Shown here piece after piece: positions 4,795 through 46,037 of a stretch of 64,000 nt of DNA. The stretch is from positions 159,088,875 to 159,152,874 of the forward strand of contig CP136062.1 in the NCBI GenBank assembly GCA_032622095.1. Direction: 5' to 3'. The notes under the pieces are model-generated. The model searched no databases and was not told where the DNA came from. It was given only the letters and a program-made list of their open reading frames with translations. Made by a program: the position numbers and the translations under genes. Position 1 is the first letter of the stretch; each line of letters begins with the position of its first letter. Source of the DNA: Siphonodentalium dalli (taxonomy: Eukaryota > Mollusca > Scaphopoda > Gadilida > Siphonodentaliidae).

Positions 4795-5694
4795 TTTTGA
4801 AAAAAGGTCGTATTATGTTATCAGTCTGTCCGTCCGTCCGTATGTCCGCCCGTCCGTCTGTCCGTCTGTCTGTCCGTCCGTCCGTTAACATTTTTGGTTT
4901 CCGATCGATAACTCCAGTTTGGAGTATTTTATCTGAACCAAAGTTGGTATGTGTATTTCCCAGCTAAAGATACAGGCCAAGTTCGAATATGGGTTCCGTC
5001 CAATTATTTTTACATGAGTTACGGCCCATTTTCGACTTAGAATTTGACCGTCTGTTAACATTTTTGGTTTCCGACCGATAACTCCAGTTTGGATTATTTG
5101 ATCTGAACCAAAGTTGGTATGTGTATTTCCCAGCTAAAGATACAGGACAAGTTCGAACATGGGTTCCGTCCAATTATTTTTACATGAGTTACGGCCCTTC
5201 TTCGACTTAGAATTTGACCGTCTGTTAACATTTTTGGTTTCCGACCGATAACTCCTGTTTGGATTATTTGATCTGAACCAAAGTTGGTATGTGTATTTCC
5301 CAGCTAAAGATACAGGCCAAGTTCGAATATGGGTTCCGTCCAGTTATTTTTACATGAGTTACGGCCCTTTTTCAACTTAGAATTTTACCAATTTCATAAC
5401 ATTTTGGTTTCCGACCGATAACTCCAGTTTTGATTATTTGAGCTGAATCAAAGCTGGTATGTGTATTTCCCAGCTAAAACTACAGGCCAAGTTTGAATAT
5501 AGGTTCTGTCTAATTATTTTTACATGAATTATGGCCATTTTTCGACTTAGAATTTGACCACATTTTGGCATTGAAATTAGGGGTACATGCATATCAGATT
5601 TTCTTCAAATGTAAGCTCAAAGTATTATCTTATTTTGCGATAGTACAATTCGAAATGGCTAAAGGGCGTATTTTGCCACGCCCTAGCGATGCTC

Positions 5695-5697
<3 letters not shown>
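4795..5697 (+). mobile_element. pearl/Helentron-type non-autonomous element, subfamily A copy 1
   Basis: Starts TATACGCCC with a local hairpin (CCCTTTTTGAAAAAAGG). A (GTCC/GTCT)n microsatellite follows at about 4829-4885, then three to four tandem units of about 178 bp (GATAACTCCAGTTTGG, GGTATGTGTATTTCC, TTCGAATATGGGTTCC, GAGTTACGGCCC, TTCGACTTAGAATTTGACC). Near the 3' end AAGGGCGTAT mirrors the 5' terminus, followed by the small stem CGCCCTAGCG and the end GCTCTTG. Tetranucleotide repeat plus 150-180-bp core repeats plus asymmetric terminal repeats and a 3' hairpin match bivalve pearl elements, now regarded as Helentron-associated. It sits within the SINE's (TTA)n tail. Confidence 0.75.
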
Positions 5698-5734
<37 letters not shown>

Positions 5735-5737
5735 GGA

Positions 5738-5950
5738 ACACCTAAAATATGGAGGAGAAATAAAATATTTCTGGAAGCCCAGATCCCAGACTGTATGAAA
5801 GGTGGAACAGTTTGCCCAATATACAAAAAAGGAGGGAAACCAAAAGACGACCCCAACTCATATAGGAAGATCACCATGCATCACCAACACAATTGGAAAG
5901 ACTATCGAAAAACTCCATCTGAAAAGAAAAGAGGCAGTAAAATCCCTAGT
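5738..5950 (+). pseudogene. LINE reverse transcriptase fragment, right part
   Basis: Translates to EHLKYGGE, then IPDCMKGGTVCPIYKKGG, KPKDDPNSYRKI and, after a frameshift, ITNTIGKTIEKLHLKRK. The PIYKKGGKPKDPxSYRxI pattern is the second conserved RT block of non-LTR elements. The fragment picks up exactly where 4410 leaves off, showing that one ancestral ORF was split by the SINE. It is too short and shifted to encode anything. The clade is not resolved. Confidence 0.8.
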
Positions 5951-6148
5951 CTTGATTGACAGCCGTCTTGTTCCAATAGACGTCTGATAACAGCTGCTGC
6001 CATCTTAATTTAAGATTAAGCTCCGCCCCTCGATCGACATCGACCCGCGCTTTGTTAGGATGACATTAACGCGAGTTGGCCCTAACAGTATTCCATACTA
6101 ACACGAACACGGACTTCCGGGTTGATAGCACCTTTTTCGGATCAGCTC
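5951..6148. other. Unassigned sequence
   Basis: No repeat or coding signature recognised. Confidence 0.4.
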
Positions 6149-6614
6149 TATAGGAATCACTGAACTAAATGGTTTCCCATAGGCGACAGTGTTAACGTTT
6201 CGGCCAAATTCACTGAATTGAAGCCTGCAAGCCATACCAGTGATGTTTACCCAGCTAGATTGACACCAGTTGATCACGAAAATGCAAGAAAAATCATAGG
6301 TCATGTGTTTACTTTTAAAAATAAATCCCAAAGTCTACGACAGGGCTATCTCACAGACAAATTTGATCTGGAAAACCCCAGGACTACAGCAGCTAGTTAA
6401 ATAAATTTCCCGCTCACAAAAATCCATTCCCCCATTCATTCACCAGTTTAAATTATTTAGATATTATGTACAAATCAAATAAACGCGATGTCATCCTTTA
6501 ATAACGTGTCGCGTGTATCAGGTGAAGGTCATTCTTCAGTTACCTTCACCTTTAGCATTCCACGGTGTACTCGCTCCCCGACCCTAGAACACATTTAGCT
6601 CCCTGATTCCTATA
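6149..6614 (-). mobile_element. 470-bp TIR element (TATAGGAATCA family), copy 1
   Basis: Ends are TATAGGAATCACTGAACTAAA and its near-inverse TTAGCTCCCTGATTCCTATA. The inside is AT-rich with no transposase. It is inverted relative to the copies at 6920 and 8275. A TA or TATA target is likely; the superfamily is unknown. Confidence 0.8.
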
Positions 6615-6919
6615 CGGACCCTCCAACCGGAAGTGGGTGAATCGTGAATCAACAGGCTACGAAAAATGCAGAAAGTTGGATATTGAATGAATCGTCCGCC
6701 AACTTGACCTTGACCTTTGCGGCGACTTTGGGATTTGACTTTTAGCATTCTAGACTGTTCTAGATGCCGTCTATTGACAGAAGTTCAGGGTGAATAACTC
6801 TATTGCTTACAAATGCACGCATTTTAGTTACCTTTTAAGCATTCATGTCAGCTAAATGTTACGGATCGGCGAACTGTCAATATGACGTCACGAATTACTA
6901 TATCCGGTGTGAGGGTCCG
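6615..6919. other. Loop between two inverted TATAGGAATCA elements
   Basis: Bounded by CGGACCCTCCAACCGGA and its near-inverse TCCGGTGTGAGGGTCCG, so the symmetry extends about 17 bp past both flanking elements. The loop may be part of an older inverted-repeat element. Confidence 0.5.
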
Positions 6920-7385
6920 TATAGGAATCAGGGAGCTAAATGTGTTCTAGAGTCGGGGAGCGAGTACACCGTGGAATGCTAATGGTGAAGGTAACTGAAG
7001 AATGACCTTCACCTGATACATGCGTCACGTTATTAAAGGACGACATCGCGTTTATTTGATTTGTACATAATATCTAAATAATTTAAACTGGTGAGTGAAT
7101 GGGGGAACGGATTTTTGTGAGCGGGAAATGTATTTAACAAGCTGTTGTAGATCTGGGTTTTTCCAGATCAAATTTGGCTGTGGGATAGCCCTGTCGTACA
7201 CTTGGGGATTTATTTTAAAAAGTAAACACATGACCTATGATTTTTCTTGCATTTTCGTGATAAACTGGTGTCAATCTAGCTGGGTAAACATCACTGGTAT
7301 GGCCCGCAGGCTTCAGTTCAGTGAATTTGGCCGAAACGTTAACACTGTCGCCTATGGGAAACCATTTAGTTCAGTGATTCCTATA
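6920..7385 (+). mobile_element. 470-bp TIR element (TATAGGAATCA family), copy 2
   Basis: Close match to copy 3 and to the reverse complement of copy 1, with termini TATAGGAATCAGGGAGC and CAGTGATTCCTATA. Its open frames also occur in the sister copies only because of shared descent. Confidence 0.8.
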
Positions 7386-8274
7386 AGAAAAAATTGAATT
7401 TTACGAAATTTCACGTCTCGCCATGATAAGTTGTTAATTCCATATTTTCTTATTTTCAAATGATAATGACCACATTTTGGACAGATTTAAAGAAGAAACG
7501 CATGGATTCGCATGTAGATAGTAAAGAAAGTGATAAATCTGGTAATTTTGCATGGATGTCAGGTACCATTAGGGGGTCAGGGGTCTAAAGCCCCCCTCCC
7601 CACAATTCTGAGGAGTGTTAACCCCCCCCCCCCCATTGGGAAAAGGTGTCATTTGACCAATTAAGCTTTTCCGGCACCCAGTAGCCTTATCTGGGACCGT
7701 AGCCCCACCCCAAGTCGGGGGGGGGGGGGGGGGGGTGATGGCATCACCACTAGAGTTACTGTCGTGCAAAACTGTCATGGCAGCTTTGTTAAACAGACAG
7801 TATGCCCTGCCATCTGGTAAAATTTCATCCCTGAAGCTGTGTCTGATGTTGTATCATAATGTTTCGATATTTAAATTGACTTATGGTTGCTTTACATTGT
7901 TATTAAAATATTTGGAATTTTTATTTTCTGTTAATTTTGGTAAATATTTATTATAAATTGCCAAATTCTGCATGAAAAGGGTTTAAAATTGGACAATATA
8001 TCCCTCTCAAAATGTATATTAACATTTCCTCTTCAATTTAGTAATATTATGGTATATAAGGACATACTTCAGTTATACAAGATGCATTGGCTAGTAAAAT
8101 TGAAAAAAAGCTCCTTTTTTTGGCTTTATTTTGAGGATTGACACTAATTTTCAGGATGCCTCATATTGGAAAAATAAACCACTACTGCTCGATATAATCC
8201 ATTTTTGATTTCAGTAAGGTCTATATTTTGATAAAATACTATAAGAAACGCTGTGTTTCACACATATACATATA
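7386..8274. other. Unassigned, with C- and G-runs
   Basis: Contains a C-run near 7621-7634 and a G-run near 7717-7734, then AT-rich sequence. No gene or terminal repeats seen. Confidence 0.4.
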
Positions 8275-8739
8275 TATAGGAATCAGGGAGCTAAATGTGG
8301 TCTAGAGTCGGGGAGCGAGTACACCGTGGAATGCCAATGGTGAAGGTAACTGAATAATGACCTTCACCTGATACATGCGTCACGTTATTAAAGGACGACA
8401 TCGCGTTTATTTGATTTGTACATAATATCTAAATAATTTAAACTGGTGAGTGAATGGGGGAACGGATTTTTGTGAGCGGGAAATGTATTTAACAAGCTGT
8501 TGTAGATCTGGGTTTTCCAGATCAAATTTGGCTGTGGGATAGCCCTGTCGTACACTTTGGGATTTATTTAAAAAAGTAACCACATGACCTATGATTTTTC
8601 TTGAATTTTCGTGATCAACTGGTGTCAATCTAGCTGGGTAAACATCACTGGTATGGCCTGCAGGCTTCAATTCTGTGAATTTGGCCGAAACGTTAACACT
8701 GTCGCCTATGGGAAACCATTTAGTTCAGTGATTCCTATA
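8275..8739 (+). mobile_element. 470-bp TIR element (TATAGGAATCA family), copy 3
   Basis: Same termini and orientation as copy 2, inserted in a TATATATA run. Confidence 0.8.
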
Positions 8740-9774
8740 GAGACGTCGAAGAAGGCAAATAAAACAGCGCCGGAAGTTAACGGCGGGTGCTATAACGCAC
8801 ACATCGAGTTATCGTTCCTGAATGGGATAACCGCATGTCAAGATGTCCGCAGTTTTCGAAAACAATGGATCTAAATTAAAAATCAAGATTAAATCTACTT
8901 GAATACGAAATGACACAAGGCTAAATCATAAAATTTAACATCATTGAGTAAAAGCACAAGAAAAGAGAGTCTGCGCGCTCCGCATATCGAGATAAATCGA
9001 CCGAATTGATAGATGCACGATATTCAGGGGGGGGGGTGAAAAAATTGCTTCCGGCACGTATGCCGGGGTGGGTGGGTGGTCAAAGCCACCAACAAGCAAT
9101 TTTTTCCGCAACTAAAAAAAAAAATTCCTGCTTGTTTTTTTAGTGTTTTGGCAATGAGTTGGGCTTCAAAACCACTTTGAATCAGTTTGAATGAGAGAAA
9201 TAATGTAATTCTAAATGGTAAACTGACTGCAGGCAGTTATCGTGTTGTATTTTGTTGCAAATTTTGAAATCCAAGATGGCCGCTGGCAGCCATGTTTTTT
9301 TGGCCGAATGACCTCAAAATGACTCATTCCTATTTACATGTCCAGTCGATCGCACGTGCTATCACGGACTGAATACAAACATGTCAATTGAATTCTGATG
9401 ATTAGCATACGTTGGAAATAATAAAACACAGCAGCATTTCATGCCTTCATCGGCAATTTGAGACATAATATAGGTTGAAATTGTTCTCATTGTTTAATTT
9501 TCCAACCTGAATTTAATGAAGAGTGAATGTTATTTTTAGACCAACAGTCAAATATTTTCCAATGGGCGGTAAAATAATGGAGCTTTCCACAGAGGCCACA
9601 CCCACAGCAGTAGTCCCGCCCACTGGTAAAAATACTTTATCCACACAAATATTGTCTGTTACCGAGATCGACTTCCAAAGTGAACTCATCAGCACTTGCC
9701 CTTATATTATGTTAACTAGCTGAAACATACTCATGTATATGATTCGTTCAAATATGAACTTTTAACCAGTTTGA
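8740..9774. other. Unassigned sequence
   Basis: A G-run lies at about 9027-9037, followed by a palindromic patch around GGCACGTATGCCGG and GTGGTCAAAGCCACC, each a short stem. No coding region recognised. Confidence 0.35.
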
Positions 9775-10095
9775 TTTAAAAAAAATTATTTAGATTCAAT
9801 TTTTTATTTTTTTTTTATATTGAACTTTGATCTGCTGTTGAACAAAAACAAAATAATAATTTGTTTTTTAAATTAAAAAAAAAAATTACATTATTTTTTA
9901 AAATTAAATATTTTTTATTTTCTTTTTAGATTTTTAGATTGAATCTTTAAAAAAAAATTTAATTTAATTTTTTTTTTACTTGATTAAAATATTTTTAAAT
10001 TTAATTTTAAAATTTTCTTTTTAGATTTTTAGATTGAAACTTATTGCTAAAAAATTCAAAAATTTGTTTAAAAAAATTTAATTTAAAATATAAGT
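9775..10095. repeat. Very AT-rich low-complexity tract
   Basis: Almost only A and T, with many A5-A9 and T5-T9 runs and the repeated phrase TTTTTAGATTTTTAGATTGAA (at about 9924 and 10018, each slightly different). It may be an eroded AT minisatellite. Confidence 0.7.
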
Positions 10096-13000
10096 TCGTT
10101 ATAACATCTGCCGTGGTACCCCGAGGTACCACACCAAAATTGGTTAAAATCGATCAAGGGCTCTGGAAGAAAAATTGCATACAGACCAGAGCAGACACAC
10201 AGATCACTGAACTCTAATATATATCTAAATCAGAGAACATACATTCGTTTTGCCATTAAATGTGAAAATAATGACAAGTGTCATGCTAAACGAAAAACAT
10301 TGTTATAATCACGGATAAATTTATAACATCATGCCGCAAATATAAATCTCAGTATATTATGATTTGACAACAAAAAAGATGGGAAATTGAATGGCTATCA
10401 GTTGGAACACTTCCAACTATACAGGGTGCCAGGTTGAAAAATTATAGCAGTTGGAATTCTTGAGGGATCTGCACCTGTTTGGGGGGGGGGGGGGTCCAAG
10501 CCAAATTATTAACCCACCCGCAAGGGGTGTGTGAGGGACAGGGACGTGGCCAATTCCCCCCGCCCCCCACATTGAACCAGACAATTCCCCCAAAATCCCG
10601 CCCTTGTTTAGAAAATGTTTATCTGGTGTCTCAAACTTTCCAACTGTTGGAAATGTCGAACCCCAAACCCCCTAAGGTTGAAAAATTTGCCGAATAATGG
10701 ACACTTTTAGACCAAAATTTTGACAAAAAAATAGAAAAAATATTCTGCTATTGACAGTTGGTCTAAAAATAACTTATTCCCCACTATACCAGTATAATAA
10801 CTGGTTGGGCATACATACAAATAATTGAGAACAATTTCAACCTATACGGGTAACTGTGGTGTAATATGCTCTAACTATAAAAGTTGTGTTGGACCGGGTC
10901 AGACATGATTTTCTAGCTTGAACATATTTATCAATGTTGGTGAGGGGGAGGGTCACCCAACACCAGACCTGTCACTATGTCCTTAAGGATGGTGTGAATA
11001 TAATTACCTGGATTCAGGATGTTGGGTCTCGCCCAAATGGATGGTGCCCATATGAATATGCTAAGGTGCATCCACCAAATGGAGTGCCCAAGCCATATAA
11101 TCCTCCCCGAGAAAACCACAAAATAAAAAGAATATATAAACACCAAATGATAATTTAGCAATTTCAATTGTTCCGTTATAAATAGATATATTAGTACATT
11201 GCATTATGTGTACAATCGGTTAGTGTGCCATGTAACTGCTGTGATGGTAACCTCTGACGGGGATGAATCCAGGCACTTCATGCAGTGCTAGCTGGCAGGT
11301 CGATTCTATTGGGACGGGGCTGAGAAAATTTAAGATTAACACACAACTGAGTGTGGGTTTGGTGCTTGGTGGAAATGGGTATACTCATGTCAGTGGTGAG
11401 ATACACCCAACACTCACTGTCATTCGCGACGTCCGTGGTAATAACGTTTACCTTTGTTTTTCTGGATCAGAGCAAAAGGAAAGTAATTGCAAGTCCCAGT
11501 ATTGTCGTAATGCTTCTTTCTTGATGTATACATTGAATACAAATGTAATCTAAATTGCTTGAATCGTGATCCACAAATAAAGCGATAAGTGGACTAGCTC
11601 ACAAACCAATGATATTAATTTGATACATGTATATGTCAATCAGATTTGGCACTGGTAAGTGCTGCACATGCATTGCAATGAAATGAGTACACCACATTTG
11701 CTATTCATGGTCATACCGGTATAAACATGTAGGCCAAATCAATATGTTGTCAGTTTTGTGTGTGTTTGTGACATTAATTAATTTAGAAACTACAAAACAT
11801 ATAATTATGTACTGTCCGAAAATAAATATTGAGCTTTGGTATTTCTCTGACAATTAAATGAGTAAAAAATGTGAGTTAAAGATATGTAATTAAATAAGTT
11901 ATAGGTAATAACAACAACTTTGCCTCTTGAGGCGACTCAAGACAGTACAATCCACAATGCATCTTATGACTGATCCACTTGGGATTTGGGATGCAAGCGC
12001 CCAAGGTGCTCGAAACGATCAAATGATCTTGTCCGCCACCTTCTGTTCTGGTAAATTACCACTTTCCAGTGTTTTATATCAGTTTGTTGCCTTTACCCCT
12101 GTTTATCCAATAGAAAGAATGGAGCTGTCCTATCCTGACTGCCCACCATCCACCCCAACTGCTGCCACCTCTGCTCTGATTATACTACTACTACTACATG
12201 TAGTATATGTTTGTATTATGAACACAAAACATTCAATCACACACTATAACACTACTACATATGATTTGTGAGTGAATGCTATTAACTGTACATAGGGCCA
12301 TATTATGTTGGGAACAAATGTAATTACTAATTTGACTCGGGGTTTGTATTTCCACTATAAAAAATAAATAAAAACATATTTCTCAGCAACTAATTTTTCT
12401 ACAAATCAGTTATTGATTGTGATTCTATTAGCGCTAATTATCATCATCAAAAACTTGGAATTAGTTTCCCCGACGATGACGTACACGTGTATCGTCTGTG
12501 CCTTGGTTATTGTTTTGAACATCGTTTTGTTTACATTCTGGTGATGCTGAAATGGAGTCTATATTAAACAAGTTTGTGTTTGATACAAAAGTTTTAATTG
12601 GAATAAATACATCTTGCACATGTTATTTGTGGTTTAATGACACACAAACAGCCATAAATTGTGATATATACAGCTCAAACGAAAGGTGACCCTTTACTGC
12701 CTGAATTGACCCCTTATTGCCTGGATTTCGTGCTATCTTTGATCGCGTATTTTAAACACAAAGAGCAAAATTTGTGAACATCACATAAGATGTATGATAG
12801 AGCTAGGATTTATGAACAAAATGATATATAAATTTGTATCCATTGTACTTGCATACAGACAGGTGCAGCACAAACATTAAAAGTGACCCTTTACTGCCTG
12901 AATGACTGTACTGACTCACTAACTGACGGATCACAACATCTACATATGTAGGGCTATTAATGCCTTATTCTATATCTGATGACTGTTGCACATGAAGATT

Positions 13001-13824
13001 AAGCAAGTTTTTATCACTTTATTTCACCAATCAACTTCAAGCAATACTTTCTCATATGTTCTGTCCGGCCATCTATTTGTTTACTTGTTGTTTGTCTGTT
13101 TTAATATCTAAATTACTCTACCTGTGAAGGTGACTTGATTGTCAATAAACTTATCTTTATCTTATCTTTACATATATGATAGGCCAATAGATATATATCT
13201 GTGTTGATTCGGTACGGTATTTAACGTACAAGTCATATTTATAGCTCTATTAGTTGGGTTGTATGTGCGCCGTTGGAAGGTATTATGCTAAATATGTTGA
13301 TGTTCTTGGTTGGTTCTTTCGGTTGATGTTATTTCACGGTGTCTGTATCGTCCAGATGATCAATTTGATTATTGTCATCACAGTCTTGAAAAAAATGCAT
13401 ATTTCTATTGAGACTTATTTGCTCTTTTTGTACAAATTATTAAATATTCAAAACAAATATACATTTGGTCAAAATTAATTATGAGCATTGAGCAGAGCCT
13501 GGTTGAAATGCTACGGTGTGACGAATCATGCTCGTCTGCGAGCTACTGTCAGAACTGATGCCATATATGCATGGTTCTATTAATGGTTTGTATTTTGATG
13601 AGGTAAACTGCTCGTAACCTCCATTGTAGACAATTTCACACCAGGTTCTACTGATTCATAAACAAATTAGAAATTTGGCATAAGGAACTGTAGTAAACAA
13701 ATGTCTGTCCGAATGACTAGATCATTGACGACTCGGGCAGACATATACGGGATAATCCAATGTTAATAATGTAATGATCGAGGCAGCATATCCAACACAA
13801 CCTTTATTATTAAACATTATAAAG
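10096..13824. other. Long unassigned stretch
   Basis: No coding region, SINE or TIR element could be supported. Visible details are a G-run at about 10482-10495, a duplicated phrase GTGACCCTTTACTGCCTGAA near 12687 and 12883, and TCAATAAACTTATC followed by TTATCTTTA-type repeats near 13142-13168, which looks like a LINE 3' tail. Short open frames (for example 11263-11553) resemble nothing I recognise. Confidence 0.4.
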
Positions 13825-13828
13825 TTAA

Positions 13829-14306: not shown

Positions 14307-14310
14307 TTTA

Positions 14311-15148: not shown

Positions 15149-15158
15149 CAGTAATGCC

Positions 15159-19267: not shown

Positions 19268-20040
19268 GTACACATTATCCAGACTGTATAGGTGCGCGAA
19301 AGAACGACCTACAACTATGGAGTGACACCCTCTCTAACCAAATAGCCTGAATTAGTTATGTCAACACAACCTGCAGGCAAGTGTTGATTTTTTTTTAAAG
19401 ACAGTATATAGCATATACGCGGTTGTGGTTTTACTTCTTTCTAGTTCATTTCAATGATATCTATAACTATTTCAGTGTCCGAATAATTATTTGGAGCATA
19501 TAAACACATCTTCACAACAAATTGATGACGCAGTTATGTTTTACACTATGCAATTCCGTCTTGGTAGTGTTTAAGATTCACATGTATCTTCGGGAACGAG
19601 TAAGCACTCAAATTGTCATCAGATCCAAGACTTTTACGAAAATATTTGTGTCTGTTTTTAATTCGCGCAGCTAGGTGCGCGAATTTAAAGTGCGCGAATT
19701 AAAAACTGAGCAAAAAATAGTACTGCGCGAAATTTAAATACGAGTAAGGTAGATAATATTGTACATGATGTGCGCTGCATCTCACACCGATTAAAGTCAA
19801 TTATATATAGTCCAATAAGATGCCGAAGTTTAATCAAAACTTGACAGTAAGCATTGTAAAAGGTAAAAGTATTGAAAAATATTCTGAAAATCATATTCAG
19901 ACTGAAATAGTTCAACATCCTTGTGCATAAATGGTCAGGTTATATACCGGTACTACGTTTTCAACTTTTCGTTGAACAAAGCTAGACAAGGATCAGTCCA
20001 TCCCGCGAAATTCGACAACAACATTACTGTCTATATTTCT
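19268..20040. other. Unassigned sequence
   Basis: AT-rich. The words AATTCGCGCA and GTGCGCGAATT (near 19660-19700) echo 18524-18570, suggesting a small dispersed repeat. Confidence 0.35.
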
Positions 20041-20112
20041 AGTTCATGGAAGTAAAAGTACATTTTGATGAATGAATTTCGTCTCAAAGTTGATATAACT
20101 GCTTAGTGAACG
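20041..20112. repeat. Dispersed repeat shared with 44452-44523
   Basis: TCATGGAAGTAAAAGTACATT and CTCAAAGTTGATATAACTGC recur with few changes near 44452-44523. Neither copy has visible terminal repeats. Confidence 0.55.
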
Positions 20113-20114
20113 TA

Positions 20115-20230
20115 AATTGCTATCTAGCTGTCGTCTGTCATTGTTTTTGCGACTCTCGAGCTGTCGCCTGTCATTGTTTTTGCGACTCTCGAGCTGTCGC
20201 CTGTCATTGTTTTGTGACTCTCGTGTCTGT
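20115..20230. repeat. 33-bp tandem repeat, about 3.5 units
   Basis: Units of CTGTCGCCTGTCATTGTTTT followed by TGCGACTCTCGAG. The 33-bp period is a multiple of three, so frames stay open on both strands, but nothing suggests a protein-coding gene. Confidence 0.8.
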
Positions 20231-20509
20231 TTATTTTCGCTCACTCAATGTCTCTTGTTCAATAGACTGGTTCCTGGTAGAAAGCTGCACATATCTCACA
20301 AATCAGAAAATTGTTTACAGAACAATAGTTTCAACAAGCTTTTAATAACGAATATATATAAGAACAATGTGTATCTATATCCAGGATCTGGGAATATAAA
20401 CATGCCAAATGGGATATCTATATCAGGCTTGCAGACGGCGTACGATGCGGGCGAATCGCAAAATTCGCAGAAAACAATGCTGCAGAATTTTACGTCGCTG
20501 TCATATTAA

Positions 20510-30357: not shown

Positions 30358-32680
30358 TATGTTTACCCATACCATAGTATGGTAAACATAGTGTCGTTGC
30401 CCGGATTGACCACTCGTCGTTGGTCCGTCTGTCCGTCTGTCTGTCCGTCTGTCTGTCCGTCTGTCCGTAGACACTTTACGAGTAATGCGATAACTCAAAA
30501 CATTTTTTATCCGATCGAAACCAAATTTTGTATATGGGTTTCTCAGCCCAAAATACAGATCGAGTTCGAATTTGGGTTTGATCCGAGATTTTGTTACAGA
30601 GTTATGGCCCTTTTTCAACTTAGAATTCACGCATTCTGCCATAACTCAAACATTTTTTATCTGATTGGAACCAAATTTGGTATGCGAGTTTCACAGCCCA
30701 AAATACAGATCGAGTTCGAATATGGGTTTGATCCGAGTTTTTTTTACGGAGTTATGGCCCTCTTTCGACTTAGAATTCATGGATGCTACGATAACTAAAA
30801 AAAATATTATCTCATGAGAACCAAATTTGGTATGTGAGTTTCTCTATCTAAAATACAATTCGAGTTCGAATATGGGTTTGATCAGATTATTTTTAATGGA
30901 GTTATGGTCCTTTGATATAGAATTCATCCATGCTTCGATAGCTCAACCAGTTATCGTCTGATAGGAACCAAATTTGGTATGTGAGTTTCTCAACTCAAAA
31001 TACAGATCAAGTTTGAATATGGGTTAGATCCTGTTTTTTATACCAGAGTTATGGCCCTTTTTAACTAAGGATTGAACAGATTCGATATTTTTATGCTTAT
31101 CATGTAGAACCATAGCAGCTATTAAACCCCTGTGATATCAGTTAGCACTGAGAGAGAGAATAGATTAACTTGTATTATTGGAAATTAGAGTTATTTTTAG
31201 CCATCATATTGTCACAGTGGAAGGTGTAATTGGACACCTTTACACAAGGTGTAAAATCTTCTCAGCAGTAACTGTTATTTATTGTATTTCCATACAGCTT
31301 TCTGGTTTAGGATATCAATGCAGTGTTCCAGTGACATACCTGTACCTAATTTTATTGAGTTAAAATTGTTAACCCTTGTCATCAATTTTATGCTTTTGTA
31401 TATTTTTTATGTAATCATTCTCCTATTATATCCCTTTCACTTGTATGGATTTTTATACGCCCTTTTGAAAAAAAGGTCGTATTATAGTATTGGTTTGTCC
31501 GTCCGGGCGTCCGGGCGTCCGTTAACCTGTTGTCCGGATGATAACTTTAGTTAGAGTGAACCAAAATTAGTAAAATTTGGTATGTGGGTTTATTAGCCGA
31601 AAAGTAAGTTCAAGTTCGAATTTGGGTTCCGCCCGCCAATTTTCACCGGAGTTATGCCCCTTATTTAACGTTTTTTGACTTAGAAAATCCTTGAAATTTG
31701 TTGTCCGGATGATAACTTTAGTATAGTTTATCGGAATGAATCCAAATTTGGTATATTACTTTCTCCCACCAAAACACAGGTCAAGTTCGAACTTGGGTTC
31801 TGTCCGACCATTTTTGGCAGAGTTATGCCCCTTTTTCGACTCAGAAAATTCAGTTTTTCTTATGTTTTTTGGTTTCCGGATGATAACTCAATTTTGGAAT
31901 GTTTATACGCAAAACCCGTATTTTTGTGGATTACATATATCGAAATACAGCTCAAGTCCGAATTTCGTTTTAATCAGATAATTTTTGCGAGAGTTATGGC
32001 CCCTTTTTTGACGTAATTTGACTTAGAAAATCCATGAAATTTGTTGTCCGGATGATAACTTTAGTTAGAGTGAACCGATTTCAATCAAATTTGGTATATG
32101 GGTTTATTAGGAGAAAAGACAGTTCAAGTTCGAATTTGGGTTCCGTCCGCCAATTTTCACCGGAGTTATGCCCCTTATTTGACGTAATTTGACTTAGAAA
32201 ATCCCTGAAATTTGTTGTCCGCATGATAACTTTACTAGAGCTTATCGGATTCAATGATAATTTGGTATATTACTTTCTCCCACCAAAACACAGGTCAAGT
32301 TCAAATTTGAGTTCCGTCCGCCAATTTTTACCAGAGTTATGTCCCTTTTTTATCAGTTTCCGCCGACCCAAGAGAGGGCATATATTGCACGCCCAGCGTA
32401 GCTCTTGTTGTGGTTAAAATGAACCCTTAATTCTCAACATTCCTTATACTTAGCAGAAATACCTTTCATCTGATATATCTCATTTTATTGAGATGTATTT
32501 AAATTTTGTATGTGAATTTCTCAGCCCAAAATACAGATAGATTTCGAATTTGGGTTTGATCCATTTTTTTATATTTTAAACAGAGTTATGGCTTATGGAT
32601 TTTCGTGTCAGAACTGAAAATAGCTGATCACTATCGCCAAGGTATGGGTTAAACATCTGCCGATCGTGATCGGCCTCTCG
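30358..32680 (+). mobile_element. pearl/Helentron-type element, subfamily B copy 1 (interrupted)
   Basis: Starts TATGTTTACCCATACC with the hairpin ACCATAGTATGGT. A (GTCC/GTCT)n run sits at 30423-30470, followed by tandem units of about 155 bp (CCAAATTTGGTATGTGAG, AAAATACAGATCGAGTTCG, GAGTTATGGCCC). The 3' portion holds GTATGGGTTAAACATC, mirroring the 5' end, then the stem GCCGATCGTGATCGGC and the end CTCTCG. A second element occupies 31454-32407. Without it the length is about 1,370 bp, close to the 1,330 bp of the copy at 44708-46037. Confidence 0.75.
31454..32407 (+). mobile_element. pearl/Helentron-type element, subfamily A copy 2
   Basis: TATACGCCC start and GAAAAAAAGGTCGTATTAT as in 4795-5697, then a short GTCCGGGC run. 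About five core units follow (TTGTCCGGATGATAACTTTA, TCAAGTTCGAATTTGGGTTC, GAGTTATGCCCC). The end has GAGGGCATATATTGCACGCC with the small stem ACGCCCAGCGT, then AGCTCTTG. It is nested in the subfamily B copy. Confidence 0.75.
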
Positions 32681-34276: not shown

Positions 34277-34284
34277 ATCCATAC

Positions 34285-36568: not shown

Positions 36569-36853
36569 CAAGTCTGCAAATAGTGTGTCTGTCATTTGCA
36601 GAATGAGGTCCCCAGAGGGTGAATTTAGTGACAGTATCATGCACATTGTTTTAGTTACTTTTTCCCTTCTGGGAAGTTTCTATATCCCCTAATTTGCAGA
36701 AGATAAATAGTATAATCGATGTGACTGATGTGTGAACTTCACCAATTTCAACTGGGGAATCTTCAATCTGATCCTAGGTCTCCCATACTAGTAGCAGTTG
36801 AGGCCTCTGGGGACCTCATTCTGTAAATGACAGACACACTATTTGCAGGCTTG
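36569..36853. mobile_element. hAT-like foldback, GAATGAGG family
   Basis: CAAGTCTGCAAATAGTGTG to CACACTATTTGCAGGCTTG. A core resembling 28290-28480 in inverse orientation lies between the partial palindromes. No matching 8-bp TSD was found at its edges. Confidence 0.75.
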
Positions 36854-36960
36854 ATGAGTACATGTAGTTTGTTGAACTTATTATTTGAAAATTCCCAATT
36901 ATACATGTAACTGGCGGGAGAATTCATTTGGTATATAACGGATTAAAATAGGGTTGGTTT

Positions 36961-37504
36961 CAAGTCTGCAAATAGTGGGCCTGTCATTTGCAGAATGAGG
37001 TCCCCAGAGGGTGAATTAACCCTTTACCCAACAGAACGGCCCTGTGCCAATGCATTCTCTTATATATGCGAGTCGACCATAGGTCGCCTCGCATATATAA
37101 GAGAATGCATTGGCTTAACACATTAAAAATTATAAAATTGTTAAAGAATGTAAGAAAAAATGTTAAAAAGTGTTAATTTTTTTTTTTTTTAGGCCAATGC
37201 ATTCTCTTATATATGCGAGGCGACCTATGGTCGACTCGCATATATAAAAGAATGCATTGGCACAGGGCATAACTGTAACCATCACAATGTGGTCAATGAG
37301 CCGGTTCCAATGATATCCATATTTGTATGGTTTTATTGAGACAGACCCAAGATAATTTAGGCTGTTGCAGCTTTATTTGGTCGTTTTTGGCCGGTTTGTT
37401 GGGTAAAGGGTTAAGTGATGCTATCTATCCCACCTATAGCATCACTAAATTCATCCTCTTTCGACCTCATTCTGTAAATGACAGGCATCTTATTCTCAAG
37501 CCTG
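36961..37504. mobile_element. hAT-like foldback split by a TTAA element
   Basis: CAAGTCTGCAAATAGTGGG, AGAATGAGGTCCCCAGAGG on the left and GTGATGCTATC, GACCTCATTCTGTAAATGAC on the right. The two halves join as one family copy once 37020-37410 is set aside. Confidence 0.8.
37020..37410. mobile_element. piggyBac-like element, exact TTAA insertion
   Basis: TTAA at 37016-37019 and 37411-37414 flanks TIRs CCCTTTACCCAACA and TGTTGGGTAAAGGG. Inside are two head-to-head palindromic cassettes (about 37047-37117 and 37193-37265) around an AT-rich spacer with a T-run. CCC ends with a TTAA target are the piggyBac signature. No transposase. Confidence 0.85.
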
Positions 37505-37672
37505 GTGTGTCGATGTGCAAATGATTGAAATTCCCGGGAGTATCTAAAATGCTGATCAGCTGCTGATCAGCAGGTTACCACCTAAAATGCTGATCAGCAG
37601 ATTTCCTGATTTTAGTTTAACTCAATTATAATGACGATAGTCAGTTGTGGGTTGTGTAAATGACACGTAATA

Positions 37673-38669
37673 TACCCCGCTGGACAAAACAAGTGTCCAT
37701 TGGCACCGCGGTGTACATGTATTTGCCGTTCGGCTGCGGTGTCAGAGTTTGTAACTGCAGTTGAGCACCGCGGCCGAACGGCAAGTACACTGCGGCCAAA
37801 CGGCAAGTTCACTGCGGCCGAAAGGCAACTACCCTCAAGGTCGAATGGCATGTACACCTTGGTTAGATTTCTGGTTTGTATTGTCTTTTTATACCCCCAC
37901 TTTCGAAGAATATGGGGGGTATACTGGATTGACTGCGTCCGTCCGTCACGCTTTCTCCGTCCGTCCGTCCGTCGAGCCGTCCGTCCGTCCGTCCGTCCGA
38001 CCTCATAACTCGAACAACTATGAACCGATTTCAATAATTTTTTGTATGCAATCTCCTTAGGACGGTCTCTCCGCATGATGCTAATTGTGGTTCGGTCCGA
38101 CTTTTTTTTTTCAAGTTACGCCTCTTTTTCGACTTATTTTGACTTAGAAAATTCTGTCCGGCTTAATAACTTTAACAAATATGAACCGATTTCAATAATT
38201 TTTGGTATACATGCTTCTCACAATACCCTCTCTACATGATGCGGCTAGGGCTTGGCTCAGACTGTTTTTCGTAATATTACACCTCATTTTCGACTTATTT
38301 TGACTTAGAAAATTCTGTCTGACTTCATAACTTTAACAAATATGAACCGATTTGAATAATTTTTTCTGTACAAGCTTCATGTGACACCATATCGATATTA
38401 TTAGTCCGAATTTTTCTTTACTTTTTGGTTGAGTTTACGGATAATGCGGGTTGAATTTGCCACGGTGGGGGTATGCTAGCACTCGAGTGCACACCTCTTG
38501 TTTCAGTTTGATGAAAGTACACCGTGGCAAATACACCATGCTGAATGGCAATTACACCGCGGCCCAACTGTAGTTAACCGGTGGAGCCGCGGTGTAGTTG
38601 CATTTCGGCTGCAGTGGCAATGCTAACCGCACCGCAGTTAAGTGGACACTTGTTTTGTCCAGCAGGGTA
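37673..38669. mobile_element. TA-flanked CCCCGCTGGACAAAACAAG element, interrupted copy
   Basis: TIRs CCCCGCTGGACAAAACAAG and CTTGTTTTGTCCAGCAGGG flanked by TA. The ends carry CACCGCGGTGTA and GCCGTTCGGC-type words repeated about every 20 bp. A pearl-like element occupies 37890-38500. The remainder (about 386 bp) matches the uninterrupted 388-bp copy at 43471-43858. Confidence 0.85.
37890..38500 (+). mobile_element. pearl/Helentron-type element, subfamily C
   Basis: Starts TATACCCCCACTTTCG with the hairpin partner ATGGGGGGTATA, then (GTCC)n at 37937-37998. About two and a half core units follow (ACAAATATGAACCGATTTC, TTCGACTTATTTTGACTTAG). The 3' end carries GTGGGGGTAT mirroring the start, the perfect stem GCACTCGAGTGC and the end ACACCTCTTG. 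It sits inside a T-run, whose empty version is at 43639-43644 on the opposite strand. Confidence 0.85.
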
Positions 38670-38962
38670 AGTGTTATATCCCACTACAGGAAGGGGACAC
38701 CTTTTGACTGGCCACCATGCCCATTCAGGAGTTCAGCAGTCTGGCGGCTGCAGTTCAGCAAATTATCGCGAATGCAGTTTAACTCAATTATAACGAAGTT
38801 ACAGTAGTGGAGTTTCGGTTGTGTAATCGATGGGCCATAACCATTTACAGGTACAGGGAGGGAAAACCATTTGACCAAACACCACCCCAGTTCAACAGTT
38901 CAAAATCACGTTCAGCAATTCATATGGAGCAGTTCAGCAGATTCCCCGAATGTAGTTTAACT

Positions 38963-39507
38963 TTAAAGGGACGGGCGGCGTTCGTTGCCGAAATATTCAT
39001 ATTTGTTCAAATCGCCATCAACAGAAGGAATATTAAAATATATATAGTTTTGTTCATATGCCAAACATAATCAGCGCGTAAATAGTATATTGTCGTCAAG
39101 ACATACAGTATGTATACATTGTACGATGGTGTACGCAAACAAGAGCCTGCTCGTGTTACAGAAGTTGTGCTTCTGTTTACATAACACATCGCAATTCTAT
39201 TGGTTAATCACACACAAATGATATAAACGCTCTTTATTATTTCCATATCAGGAGAACAGTAACAAATAACGCTCTTTATGTTTACCATATCCGGATCTAA
39301 ACAAAAGCCAGGTAACGTAACGTTTTTTGCTTTTGTTTACATAACAAAGGGAAAAAATTGACAATAACATACTGTTTTTGCCATATTTCTGATTGGTGAA
39401 AGGACAAAGTCTGTCTATATTTTACTATTCTTTCTGTTTATGGCGGTTTTTGACGGAGGTGAATATTTTAACAGCATACCCACCGCCAACGCCGCCCGTA
39501 TCTTTAA
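38963..39507. mobile_element. TTAA-flanked element with GGGCGGCG ends (Kolobok-like)
   Basis: TTAAAGGGACGGGCGGCG on the left and CGCCGCCCGTATCTTTAA on the right. It is set in a host unit that normally reads GTTTAACTCAATTATAATG. No ORF of note. The exact left boundary is ambiguous by about six bases. Confidence 0.7.
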
Positions 39508-40357
39508 CTAAATTATAATGAGGTTATTCGGGTATCCTAGTAGGTTATGCAAATGACTCATGATTGATGTGCCTTAACTAAATACATAGAGAGAACACCA
39601 TTTGACCGACGTCCATCCTAGTTCAACAGTTCAAAATCCCGTTTAGCATGTTATTGGATACAGTTCAACTGATTCCACCGAATGCAGTTTTAACCTATTT
39701 TTAATGAGGATAGTCTGGTATATGTTGTGCAAATGACTTGTAATAGATGGGCCATAACCAAATTCATGTACATGTACAGGGATGGAACACCATTTGACCG
39801 ACCTTCGTTAAAAGTTGGTTAAATTGCTTTGGGGGGATCTGCTGAACTGTTCCCGATAAAGTGCTGAACAGGATCTTGAACTGCTGAACTGGGGTGGAGG
39901 TCAGTCAAATGGTGTTCCATCCCTGTATTTGTGTTCCATCGATAGAAAGCAACAGTCATTTGCACAACATACATCATCCTTGTTAAAATTCAGTTAATCT
40001 GCGTTCGGTGCATGGAATCAGCTGAACTGTCTTCAATAATGTGCTGAACTGGATTTTGAACTGTTGAACTAGGATGGAGGTCGGTCAAATGGTGTTCTCT
40101 GTATGTATTGAGTTAAGGCACATCGATCATAAGTCATTTGCTCAACCTACATGTATACATGTACCTGAAAAACTTCATTATAATTGAGTTAAACTGTTGT
40201 ATTCGCAATAATCTGCTGAATGGGATGTTGAACTCCAGAAAGAGCATGGCGTGCAGTCAACAGGTGGGATATCATAACACTTATATTTTGTGTCATTTAC
40301 ACAACCCACCACAGACTATCATCATTATAATTGGGTTAAAATGAAATCAGCATTTTA

Positions 40358-42438
40358 CAGTAATGCGCTATAAATAATCGACCCCTTAACAACATCAGCC
40401 CACTGGGACGGTCGCACTAGTGCTTGACGCGCTAAAGCCAGTGAGTTGCTGTTGCATTCTCTTATATATGCGTCATGCGAGTCGACCATAGGCTCGGTGG
40501 ACAATGGATTCTACTCTAATCCCCACCGAGCTTTTGCATGCGCTGAGCTGCTTTCAGTCGGCCCATTGTGTTAGCTGGACACTCCATGCTAACAGGGGTC
40601 GGCTGGAAGTGGTTTTGGATATCCAGGTCACTCCGGTGGAACCCTCCACCAGCCGTGGCCTGGATGGACCGACCGGACTTCTCCGGTCCGGGGCTTTCCA
40701 GACCATCCGCACCGAGAAGGAAAAGAAGACACCATCAAGACGCCGCAGGGACGCTGACAGGAGGGCCAAGTGGAAACGGGGAACTGAGAGACGCCCAGTT
40801 CTCCCCCACTTGGCCTCCGGGCAAGAAGATCTGCCAGATGTCGACATCACTACCACCAGCGGATGCAGGGACACCGAAGTCACCCCGGAGGTCCCTGCCG
40901 TCGACGTAGACAGCGGCAACAGGACGCCGATGCCATCCCGGAAGTCCCCGCCGCTGTCTTCGACGTGGAGATGGCAACACCTCCATCCAGCCAGACTCCA
41001 CCAGGGACGGAAAATGTCAGCTACGTCCCTGCGACGCCGATGTACGAAGAAAGGCCGGTGTCACCAAAGAAAGAAACATTAGAAGAACGCATAGAAAGAA
41101 ATCGTGTGAAAATCAAACTGAACATCTCAGATTTTCACAGAGAAGGAAAGGTCTACCAGTGCTCTAATTTGGAATTCCACCTACTGAGAGACCGTAAAAT
41201 CTAGAAATGGACAAACAAGAGCGAAGCTTCATCAGGGAACGCCTGGATAAACAGCGATGGCAAGATTGCCTACTCAAAAAGGCCACCACCACTGAAATAA
41301 AAGAACTCTAGAAATTTATGTTTGAAAATGCTATGCATTTTTTTTCTTTTCTTTTTGATATTTCTGAATTAAAGCTTAACATGAGGGGTGATGGAGTAGG
41401 CCTCTCGGCCTATTCGACCATCCCAGGGTTAGCCCCCCCAAACCACATACCCTACAACAGAATTATGGGTAACTTTTCAGGATTTAGTCGGAAATATGGC
41501 TTGTTGCCATTCATCGGAAAGCTCTCAGTGTGAGCTTTCCGATTAATGGCAACAAGCCATAATTCTGCTGTGGTTAAGGTAAGGACCAGCCTAGACCTGA
41601 TTTTCAGGGCGAAGTGACTTCTAACTGTCACATAAATAAGGCGAAATGGGCGCTCAATAGGGCGAAGAACGAAAATAGGAGATATGTAATATCTAAATTA
41701 AAATGATGAAACAATGGTTTAAATATGGAATAATTATGTTCAAATCATAACTCTAATATTAAACTATGAATAATGTCCAAACATAATTGTGAGAGAATGG
41801 TGGCATTTTATCTAATAATTTTGGGAAAACGGCATTTTTAGAACCGCTTATGAATACAATTTTTTTTTTACTAAACAATGCTTATGAGTAAGAAAAAAAT
41901 TACTAAACGAAACAAAATCCTGAATATTCTCACTCATTAAAAGTGCATAAGCTGGGTACAAATATTAACATGTTACACAAATGAATTTGCTTTCAAAGTT
42001 GTTCTGGCCTTTACAAACTATAACAAAGGGGTGATGAACTGACACATGGTAAGGTGTATGAGTTGTCATCTACAGTGTGATAATCCCAAAATCACAAGTC
42101 ACTGCAGACACATTACGATGTATTCACAGTTGTCGGCAATCAACTCTCAGGTGTGAATGCGCTCCCAAATCGGATTAATATAGATGTCAATAAGAATTAT
42201 GGTGTTTTATAAGACCCTGTCTATAGATAACTGGGTTCAATCAATGTTAGCAATAAATTAGGATGAATATTTTCCCGATTTTCGTCGGTCAACTTCGGAA
42301 ATTTCAGGGCGACTTAAACTTCGCCCGACTGCAAAATTAGTGCGAAATTAGCAAGAATAGGGAGACTTCTTCGCCCACGCCCACGTCGCCTCTCGGCTAT
42401 TCCCTGGGTTAAGGGGTCAATTATTTAGGGCATTACTG
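40358..42438. mobile_element. 2.1-kb pogo-type TIR element with coding-like cargo
   Basis: Left end CAGTAATGCGCTATAAATAA and then TCGACCCCTTAA; right end TTAAGGGGTCAATTATTTAG and then GGCATTACTG; TA on both sides. Inside are a GC-rich decayed coding region (40504-41312), a copy of the family palindrome (41452-41578) and an 800-bp segment with GGGCGAAGTGAC..GGGCGACTT words at its ends (41585-42400). Confidence 0.65.
40504..41312 (+). pseudogene. GC-rich decayed coding region, possible element ORF1
   Basis: GC-rich and CpG-containing, unlike the flanks. The first frame (ATG 40504) reads HCVSWTLHANRGRLEVVLDI, then a basic stretch TPSRRRRDADRRAKWKRG and an acidic part (EDLPDVDITTT). Near 40915 the sense shifts frame to DADAIPEVPAAVFDVEMATPP, TPMYEERPVSPKKETLEERI and IKLNISDFHREGK. 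After about 41195 it shifts again to MDKQERSFIRERLDKQRWQD, ending at 41312. Two frameshifts imply a pseudogene. A basic KSPSxxRRD-like patch beside acidic and proline-rich segments resembles proteins that I associate with invertebrate transposon ORFs, but I cannot name the family. A captured host gene fragment is also possible. Confidence 0.5.
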
Positions 42439-42886
42439 TAGGTACATGTTACATGTACTCCCGAAATTCACTATTTTTGAAATGATGTCGACCGCAATAA
42501 TTGAACAAAGCGAAATAAAATGTGAAAAGTACAAAACTATTTAGAAAATGCTCTAAATGTCACACACGTAACGAAAGAATGAGCTTGGTACAATGTATTC
42601 GTTTCTGCTTTCTATTGTATCATGCAGATAATATTACTAGATTTTATACTTTATACGAATGCTAAAATAGTGCTGCCAATATAAATAATAATAAGTTTTC
42701 ACATGCATGACATTTATGGACAATGAATATGCACCAATGGTACGAAGGCTTTTAACTTGTACTGCAGCTGTGAACTGTGCGACAAAAGCGTCTTTTGCGA
42801 CTGGGGGCGGTTATTCGTATATTTCCATTGCAAGTCAAGGTTTTTTGTTAGGCCAAACAAAAAAAGATATTTGATTCTAGGTACCT
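42439..42886. other. Unassigned sequence
   Basis: AT-rich, no repeat ends or coding character seen. Confidence 0.4.
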
Positions 42887-42991
42887 GAGAGCTTTCCGAT
42901 GAATGGTAACAAGCCATATTTCCGACTAAATCCTGAAAAATTACCCATAATTCTGCTGTGGTTAAGGAGTCGATTAGTTACGGCATTACTG
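42887..42991 (-). mobile_element. pogo-like MITE, half copy
   Basis: GAGAGCTTTCCGATGAATGG to GGCATTACTG. Only one arm, as at 28888. Confidence 0.7.
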
Positions 42992-43096
42992 TAGATTTGG
43001 ACCTCAAAATACTTAAATTCAGCCCAGTTCAGCCTATAAAAATATTAACATTTTAAATAAGAATCTTAACACAAACATTGAGATATGTGATCTATG

Positions 43097-44338
43097 CAAG
43101 TCTGAGTTTAGTGTGCCTGTTATTTGCAGAATGAGGTCTAGCGGGCTAGCATCACCAAATTCACCCTCTGGGGACCTAATTCTACATGGCCTCATCTGCT
43201 ATTGTAGATCATGCCATGAATCTCTACTCAAAGCTGACACCCGTAGAGATCATACTACTTGTGTTCAAAACCCGGGTACTTTATTAAAGTTTTGACAGGG
43301 AACCGTATAAAGTCAAAAAAATAACGCGGGGAATGTATTTCTTTGTTCATACCTGTTGCTTAATGATTTATTCATAGGTACATGAAGTTCCCAGCTCGAT
43401 ATTTCATTGTTTAGGTGACTTTTGAGACCTGATTCCGCTTACGGCCTGAATTTTCGTGACGGGAAGTAAAGTACCCTGCTTGACAAAACAAGTGTCCACT
43501 TAACCGCGGTGCAGTTAGCGTTGCCACCGTGGCTGAAATGCAACTACACCGCGCCTCCACTGTCTAACTACAGTTGGGCCGCGGTGTACTTGCCGTTCGG
43601 CCATGGTGTAATTGCTGCGGTGTACGTTCATTAAACTGAAAAAAGACGATACAAACCAGAAATCTAACCACGGTGTACATGCCGTTCGGCTGCGGTGTAG
43701 TTGCCTTTCGGCCGCAGTGTACTTGCTGTTGGGCCACGGTGTACATGATGTACTTGCCGTTCGGCCGCGGTGCTCAACTGCAGTTACAAACTCTGACACC
43801 GCGACCGAACGGCAAATACACCGCGGTGTCAATGGACACTTGTTTTGTCCAGCGGGGTAAATATTTATCGCGGAATCGGGTCTCAAAAGTCACCTAAACA
43901 ATGAAATATCGAGCTGGGAACTTAACGTACCGATGAATAAATCATTAAGCAACAGGTATGAACAAAGAAATACATTCCCCGCGTTATTTTTTCGACTTTA
44001 TACGGTTCCCTGTCAAAACTTAAAAAAAGTTCCCGGGTTTTGAACACAAGGAGTATAATCTCTATGGGCGTCAGCTTTGAGTAGAGATTCATGGCATGAT
44101 CTACTGCTATTGGAGACATAGACTCAGATAGAAGTTCCCAAATGGTGAATATTGTGATGTACACGTACCCACTGGGAACCTCGATTATGCAATGTGTCAT
44201 CTGCCAATTTGGGGATATAGAGAAACTAAACATGGGTGAATTTAGTGATGCTAGTTCGCTATGTGTGGGATAGCATCACTAAATTCACCCTCTGGGGACC
44301 TCATTTTGCAAATGACAGGCACAATAAACTCAGGCTTG
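43097..44338. mobile_element. 1.24-kb hAT-like foldback with perfect 8-bp TSD
   Basis: GATCTATG is duplicated at 43089-43096 and 44339-44346. Ends are CAAGTCTGAGTTTAGTGTG and CACAATAAACTCAGGCTTG. The family palindromes lie just inside, then long inverted arms of about 250 bp (43195-43450 against 43870-44115, sharing ATGCCATGAATCTCTACTC and CAGGGAACCGTATAAAGTC). The loop is occupied by another element (43471-43858). Largest GAATGAGG family member here with proven boundaries. Confidence 0.9.
43471..43858. mobile_element. TA-flanked CCCCGCTGGACAAAACAAG element, uninterrupted copy
   Basis: CCCTGCTTGACAAAACAAG and CTTGTTTTGTCCAGCGGGG in a TA target, in the loop of the foldback. Internal CACCGCGG..GCCGTTCGGC words as in 37673-38669 but in inverse orientation. 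It keeps the empty A6 tract (43639-43644) where the sister copy received a pearl-like element. Confidence 0.85.
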
Positions 44339-44451
44339 GATCTATGGTGTAACTAGAAAGGGTCAAGATACTACGAATCGGGCGGGTGGTCAGTTTGGGA
44401 CGAGGACAAGTCTAATGTGCGAAATTCAGCAACAACTGTCAGAAGTTTCCA

Positions 44452-44523
44452 CTTCATGGAAATAAAAGTACATTTTAGTAACAGAATTTCATCTCAAAGT
44501 TGTTATATTTCCTTAGTGAATGA
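44452..44523. repeat. Dispersed repeat shared with 20041-20112
   Basis: TTCATGGAAATAAAAGTACA and CTCAAAGTTGTTATATTTCC correspond to the earlier copy. Confidence 0.55.
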
Positions 44524-44707
44524 AAAGGTAGAGGTCTAATGTCGCTAGAACTATACTCGTCCTTGACCTTGATACTCGTAGGGCGCACATCCACTATGGT
44601 AATCTGTTTCATATTTGGGGTCATAGGGGCCAGCATCCTCATGATATTATGACTGTATAACATTATATAGATAACACTGTTGTATTATATAAACTACATG
44701 TATTTTT

Positions 44708-46037
44708 TATGTTTACCCATACCATGTATGGTAAACATAGTGTCGTTGTCCGGATTGACCACTCGTCGTTCGTCCGTCTGTCCGTCCGTCTGTCCGTCCG
44801 TCCGTCCGTCTGTCCGTCCGTAGACACTTTACGTGTAATGCGATAACTCAAACATTTTCTACCTTATCAAAACCAAATTTTGTATATGGGGTTTTCAGAT
44901 CGAGTTCGAATATGGGTTTGATCCGACTTTTTTTTACAGAGTTATGGAACTTTTTCGACTTAGAATTCACGCATTCTGCCATAACTCAAACATTTTTTAT
45001 CTGATCGGAACCAAATTTGGTATGTGAGTTTCTCGGCCCAAAATACAGACCGAGTTCGAATATGGGTTTGATCCGAGTTTTTTTTACAGAGTTATGGCCC
45101 TTTTTTGACTTAGAATTCATGAATTCTGCCATAACTCAAACATTTTTTATCTGATTGTAACCAAATATGGTATATGAGGTTCTCAGACCAACATACTGAT
45201 TGAGTTCGAATATGGGTTTGATCGGATGTTTTTTAATGGAGTTATGGTCCTTTGACATATAGTTCACACATACTTCGATAAAGCAACCATTTTTCATCTG
45301 ATAGGAGCCAAATTTGGTATATGAGTTTCTCAACTCAAAATACAGAACGAGTTTGAATATGGGTTAGATCCAATTTGTTATATCCGAGATATGGCCCTTT
45401 TTCAACTAAGAATTATCCAATTATAACCCAAGTAACTTACAATTAATGAATACCTCAGCCTCACAGCTTCTCTGTGAGAGAGATAAAAAGACATGGTTTA
45501 TTGAGAGTTATTTATAGCTCTCATATGTTCCCTCTGTATAAGAGACACAAATTAGTGAATTATTGGATAAATTGATTTAGCTATCTTATTAACCACAACT
45601 TAATGTGAATTTATTTAACTAGACCAATGGAGCTCTCTAAGTCCTTGGATGATGGGACTACATTGGATCAAACAGGGCAGAGATAGGTGATTAACCCCTT
45701 TTACCCATTCCATGTCTTTTAACCTTTTCCATTAAATAAATAATTATATTATTTTGATATCTCACATGGCAATTTGCAACAACATGAATAGAACTGCTTA
45801 TACTATGATAGTGGTGACAGGCTCTAGAGTTTAGACGTTATATTAACCCTTCTATATTGACTCATACATTCCAATAATTTGTGTTATTACTGGTTATTAT
45901 GTACATTTGCCATATACTACTTCATATCATAACAGTATACTCTATAATTCAACATTAAAAGATTATGATTCTGATTATAACAATTTACTATCGCCAAGGG
46001 ATGGGTTAAACATCTGCCGATCGTGATCGGCCTCTCG
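44708..46037 (+). mobile_element. pearl/Helentron-type element, subfamily B copy 2
   Basis: TATGTTTACCCATACC start, (GTCC/GTCT)n at 44773-44820, about four core units (CAAATTTGGTATGTGAG, GAGTTCGAATATGGGTTTG, GAGTTATGG). The end has GGATGGGTTAAACATC, the stem GCCGATCGTGATCGGC and CTCTCG. It is preceded and followed by T-runs. Uninterrupted, unlike copy 1. Confidence 0.75.

Follow-up and report, generated by a model that had tools for sequence, protein, structure and literature searches.

What are the short, tandemly repetitive mobile elements that lie scattered through the DNA of one scaphopod, and which protein moves them? The question is raised by a stretch of 64,000 nucleotides of the Siphonodentalium dalli genome (contig CP136062.1, positions 159,088,875 to 159,152,874, forward strand; hereafter the window), in which an earlier note, made from the letters alone, had seen three subfamilies of pearl/Helentron-like elements. 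The window holds five complete copies and one truncated copy of such elements, all on the + strand and belonging to families A, B and C. We consider it very probable that they are Helentron-associated interspersed elements (HINEs) of the pearl/Cg_HINE kind that are moved in trans by a Helentron-type Rep/Pif1 protein, the partner of family B being an 11,869-bp autonomous element (G000:C3:145044376-145056244; hereafter the C3 element) or a close relative of it. Coordinates with a prefix such as C3: refer to the nine contigs of the 2.2-Gb genome; plain coordinates refer to the window.

Family A is represented by copy A1 (4785-5697), which consists of a hairpin (4785-4813), a run of GTCY tetranucleotides (4824-4885), core units and the end CTCTTG, and is followed directly by a TTA microsatellite. 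The second A copy, A2 (31454-32407), is nested in copy B1 of family B (30358-32680, end CTCTCG), which measures 1,369 bp without it. Copy B2 (44708-46037, end CTCTCG) has its hairpin at 44708-44739, its GTCY run at 44767-44821 and a segment devoid of core units between the array and the CTCTCG end. Copy C1 (37890-38500) is nested in a miniature inverted-repeat transposable element (MITE; 37673-38669, no strand assigned) with inverted arms of 27 bp (37673-37699/38643-38669), and a family C remnant (47535-47869) is truncated at its 5' side with the 3' end intact. All the copies named in the earlier note exist on the + strand, with two corrections: A1 begins at 4785 (TATACGCCC) and not at 4795, and A2, although real, is not a standalone element.

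The families share one layout, in which a 5' hairpin is followed by a GTCY run, tandem core units, an inverted copy of the 5' arm, a 3' palindrome that is clear only in B, and the terminal CTCTTG or CTCTCG. The expected core units of about 150 to 180 bp were recovered by Tandem Repeats Finder in A (170 bp x 4.0 in A1, 171 bp x 4.8 in A2) and B (150 bp x 3.9 in B1, x 3.5 in B2). No core array was listed by this program for copy C1, and BLAST matches of the C remnant to it at 38016, 38177 and 38338 give a spacing of 161 bp. Unit number varies within a family, from 1 to 5 in six A copies counted by the core word. With regard to the words said to be shared, GACTTAGAA is common to A, B and C, but GAGTTATG-type words are present in A and B and number 0 in copy C1. 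The tetranucleotide run was likewise borne out except in A2: the five window runs of at least four GTC[C/T/A] units (4824, 4852, 30423, 37979 and 44772) are all on the + strand and all fall in A1, B1, C1 or B2, the minus strand has none of this length, and A2 retains only a decayed run.

Evidence for the identity of these elements comes from the C3 element, which combines both B ends with a coding region. Its first 64 bp are identical to B1 at 63 positions, its last 53 bp are identical to B1 at 52 and to B2 at 50, and TT follows directly after the 3' end. After the B 5' end come a GTCY run and then a core unit, which is 76-85% identical to B1 and B2 units over 92-143 bp (nine matches); the unit is single here versus about 3.5 to 4 in the B copies of the window. 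A frame of 2,589 codons without stops (Rep place C3:145051064) encodes a Rep with a HUH motif (SPHIHMMLW), a DUF6570 region and a Pif1 helicase, with domain matches to PF14214 (5.5e-24) and PIF1 (2.5e-27); a Y..Y motif was not found with a simple pattern in the stretch of the frame searched. The C-terminus gives a weak endonuclease match (PF03372, 2.7e-4), obtained with a query that stops where the piece stops. Thus the autonomous Rep-helicase element with the same end that the earlier note had proposed to look for is present for B, in one copy, and the Helentron-associated, pearl-like identity holds on two grounds, the published HINE features and this element with both B ends.

Could the B ends around the C3 frame belong to unconnected HINE fragments, brought by chance to the two sides of a helentron body, with the real partner lying elsewhere? 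The elements would still be HINEs in that case. Other loci lend the idea some substance: the frame of the H8a helentron family has B and A-like pieces on its upstream side, D and E HINEs (families beyond A, B and C) lie inside the H1 family, and an E-like 3' end is found near the C1:61520938 frame. In the C3 element, however, the 5' end runs on through the GTCY run and the core unit with no B 3' end before the frame, and no 5' hairpin or core precedes the 3' end; a second B end inside the element was not found. By our own estimate, a same-strand B 3' end would occur within 1.1 kb behind a given frame by chance in about 0.3% of cases if the 10,925 such ends were spread evenly over 2.2 Gb, which they may not be. 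We regard separate fragments as an unlikely explanation. Because HINE pieces cluster around helentron frames, the even-spread estimate is too lenient, and we have lowered our confidence in the main explanation slightly on this account.

Several further observations weigh against assigning the elements to this partner and this class. The PF03372 match scores 21.2 of 24.5 bits, below the Pfam curated score, and the endonuclease was not listed at 0.01 in a longer piece of the C3 element; the assignment to Helentron rather than Helitron2 therefore depends on a weak domain. The autonomous B partner is a single copy. Outside the ends and core it matches B1 nowhere and B2 once, over 59 bp, so that the B copies of the window are not simple internal deletions of the C3 copy itself. 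At the four B 3'-end loci inspected, the exact B 5' word is absent within 1.5 kb upstream (4/4), and in the stretches read, 13 of 14 Rep loci do not have A, B or C ends as their borders, with no partner for A or C among the 14. The 3' stem of C is unstable by energy (189 and 189 of 200 shuffles are as good). In favour of the C3 partner, one of the four B 3'-end loci, L016, matches the C3 element at positions 126-665, through and past the core, and again at the 3' end, the pattern expected of a deletion derivative.

The Rep loci were drawn from two genome searches, one with PF14214 (at least 151 matches; 150 of 457 candidates scored) and one with a helentron-type Rep (at least 133 matches; 150 of 175 candidates scored). 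Flanks were read, wholly or partly, for the 14 loci, and an equally scoring Rep place, C1:177418265-177418846 on the minus strand, lies outside this set; loci L001-L006, the top PF14214 places and of another Rep type, were scanned over 3.5 kb each for end words alone. Several of the other 13 Rep loci contain HINE pieces. In a comparison by eye of some of the first 100 A, B and C end places, none was seen close to the Rep places of contigs C1 and C2. Three candidate partners were set aside on comparison of copies. In the H8a family (four copies, the fourth by alignment alone) homology extends beyond the B and A-like pieces upstream of the frame. In H8b/H4 the frame is followed after 3.8 kb by an A-like 3' end, past which the copies remain homologous. 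The H1 family, which holds the D and E HINEs and accounts for at least 15 of the 133 Rep places with one score, parts at a palindrome plus CTAG, a border seen from H1 itself, as the two compared stretches stay alike past this point. The loci C1:61520938, C3:299307241 and C7:100202204 were also rejected: at E up to 0.05, the stretches read there gave no match to an A, B or C end except one of 17 bp, C-like and on the opposite strand.

These helentron loci have features of their own. The H1 family encodes Rep, helicase and endonuclease and comprises C1:214407300-214437000 (L034, L031, L025, L026, L036, L049) and relatives; the sequence at which H1 parts from the two other stretches, AATTGCTGTGCAATT...CTAG, is a Helitron-like end near an endonuclease-bearing frame. 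In two helentron pairs the identity changes along the alignment, from 88% in the left part to 98-99% (C8:82466900-82481400 and C3:300738700-300752500) and from 93% in the left part to 98-99% (C1:214407300-214437000 and C1:169472200-169494500). In both, the change sits around a 54-bp minisatellite inside the frame; the sequences look as if the copies had exchanged halves. The HINE-like family D has a TAGCTCACCTGAG hairpin, GGTGRGCGA, CAGTCATTGACTG and a TCTTG or ACTTG end, and is found at L046:642-, H1 19972-20377 (joined C1:214407300-) and H8b 11325-12759 (joined C8:4870800-), and in L061 GTCC units accompany a hairpin that belongs to a further type (TATGCCCCC). The count of three subfamilies is correct for the window but too low for the genome, where D and E occur in the helentron loci.

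We next consider the ends themselves, for which folding energies were ranked against 200 shuffles and pairing of the 5' and 3' arms against 2000. The 5' hairpins of A1, A2, B1, B2 and C1 are matched by 0 to 3 of 200 shuffles and a longer C1 piece by 6, in agreement with the hairpin claimed for all three families; for family D, the single hairpin examined is less stable (12 of 200). Searching for the A hairpin as a perfect palindrome gave 0 matches because the right side of the real hairpin reads GGTCGTATT. In A, B and C the first arm of the 5' hairpin returns inverted about 25 bp before the 3' end, as AAAGGGCGTAT in A1, and this subterminal match, also noted earlier, is equalled in 0 (A1), 0 (B2) and 1 (C1) of 2000 shuffles. 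In a pairing matrix of five families, with A, B and C taken from the window and a helentron locus supplying D and E, pairing each 5' arm with the 3' copy of its own family gave the highest sum among 120 permutations. The earlier suggestion that structure matters more than letters is supported, for the 5' arm and its 3' subterminal copy, by this joint result but not by D and E singly (678 and 86 of 2000 shuffles, not significant). For the short 3' stem the families differ: the palindrome is clear in B (equalled in energy by 4 and 19 of 200 shuffles), whereas A has a short one (15 and 9) and it is present as letters in C, where C1 carries GCACTCGAGTGC despite its unstable energy.

The border of the elements was followed genome-wide with end words at up to 3 mismatches. 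The A 5' end occurs at 1,888 places (921+967), the B 3' end at 10,925 (5,398+5,527) and the C 3' end at 2,800 (1,417+1,383), and reversed-pattern controls gave 0 genome matches each. Bases after the end were counted for B and C with exact patterns, that is, for intact ends only: T is next after 6,058 of 6,086 B ends, a second T follows in 5,868 of these 6,058, and T is next after 1,269 of 1,278 C ends. At about 99% T in both families, the ends do not run past the terminus given in the earlier note, and the border is sharp among intact B and C ends. For family A, whose 3' end lay outside the search pattern, the 5' end was used to retrieve six of the 1,888 places; each of the six has T before it, and the four with a 3' end in the locus stop at CTCTTG|TT.

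Empty sites define the target as a T-run. The joined flanks of C1 match across the junction in 40 of 40 scored paralogous places (40 of 2,437 candidates scored), and all six empty sites inspected have 6 T versus 7 T at the filled site, the one extra T being assignable either to the element or to the target. For A2, two helentron loci hold sequence related to B (74-78% identical) but free of the insertion, with a T-run of 6 in locus H3 versus 4+2 flanking A2, and TTATT in the other locus. Over 12 junction pairs the flanks share just 1 to 4 T-rich bases; there is no target-site duplication (TSD) beyond what T-runs yield by themselves, and the earlier note had named such duplications as an observation that would tell against its reading. 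A canonical Helitron, with a CTRR 3' end and insertion between A and T, does not fit the ends CTCTTG and CTCTCG between T's. The inverted copy of the 5' arm near the 3' end recalls a cut-and-paste MITE bounded by terminal inverted repeats, the form in which pearl was originally presented, but that copy lies about 25 bp inside the 3' end, TSDs are missing, the empty sites disfavour cut-and-paste, and the B ends are borne by a Rep/helicase element; we consider this origin highly improbable.

For HINEs moved by a Helentron-type protein, the observed ends suggest the following scheme, in which nick order, trans mobilisation and array growth are modelled on the Helentron literature. Rep would recognise three sites, namely the 5' arm, the partner of that arm in the hairpin, and the inverted copy close to the 3' end, and would nick at the element end, whereupon the helicase would peel off one strand. 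The 3' palindrome and CTCTYG would terminate replication, and the peeled strand would be joined into a T-run without target duplication. Families A and C would work like B, given their common layout, border and target. The core array of B may be a multiplied form of the unit of which the autonomous copy has just one, with multiplication probably occurring during rolling-circle or recombinational copying. A broader proposal, which we put forward tentatively and think more doubtful than not, is that pearl-type tandem units are not captured satellites; each would derive from a single unit that its own Helentron carries in the 5' part, beside the GTCY run, and the array would grow once the coding part is lost. 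In the same proposal the three copies of the 5' arm would form an either/or switch of single-strand pairing that lets Rep tell start from end.

The architecture is already described, and the B family with its autonomous partner is the new part, as far as the accessible portions of the published accounts extend. Listed in print as HINE features are a 5' subterminal inverted repeat (subTIR) plus inverted repeat (IR), a GTCY microsatellite, central repeats, a 3' subTIR, a 3' palindrome, TT insertion and no TSD (PMC7492417, PMC4067079). The Cg_HINEs of Crassostrea gigas resemble our elements in the 5' subTIR and IR, the GTCY/GTCC-type microsatellite of several Cg_HINEs, central repeats of the Cg170 kind, the 3' subTIR, the 3' palindrome as seen clearly in B, the T-rich target and the lack of a TSD (PMC7492417). 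They differ in that no related autonomous element is given there, whereas B has both ends and the core unit in one: 10 Repbase elements with the Helentron-type Rep motif were not relatable to Cg_HINEs (PMC7492417), and autonomous Helitron sequences went undetected in a later paper on the oyster genome (PMC7992393). We found no printed partner for a mollusc tandem-repeat HINE, a statement that rests partly on these two oyster papers, with subscription journals mostly uncovered. The pearl elements CvA, CvE and CvG of Crassostrea virginica, whose central repeats measure about 160 bp and number as many as six, resemble ours in their described architecture (PMC7492417, PMC11136912). DINE-1 and HINE-Mo share subTIRs, an IR (DINE-1), a 3' stem loop, TT preference and a Helentron with the same ends, but have other hosts and other sequences; passenger and partner are 95-98% identical there, compared with 98% at the ends (B1) and 76-85% over the core here (PMC4067079). 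Helitron2 is like the C3 element in its Rep/helicase, in terminal inverted repeats that are asymmetrical and in having a palindrome at each end, but is described without an endonuclease, for which the C3 element has a weak match (PMC4067079).

The remainder of the window contains other repeats. Directly left of the truncated C copy, which adjoins it at 47535, is a foldback element (47077-47535; arms 47077-47119/47493-47535) built of nested inverted repeats, with outer arms of 43 bp and 104 bp and two inner 33-bp hairpins. At 2234-3935 on the minus strand, a tyrosine-recombinase-like frame (PF00589, 3.7e-5, below cut-off) adjoins another that weakly resembles RNase H (RVT_3, 0.0028); we take these frames to be possibly the remnant of a DIRS/Ngaro-like retroelement. 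At 61399-62036 lies a 37-bp tandem repeat of 17 copies in which several frames are open.

Pearl-type HINEs spread satellite-like repeats through oyster genomes. In the B pair, the autonomous member is full-length, has an open frame for Rep and helicase, and carries the B ends together with one core unit; this makes partner recognition testable, and with it the birth of the repeat array.

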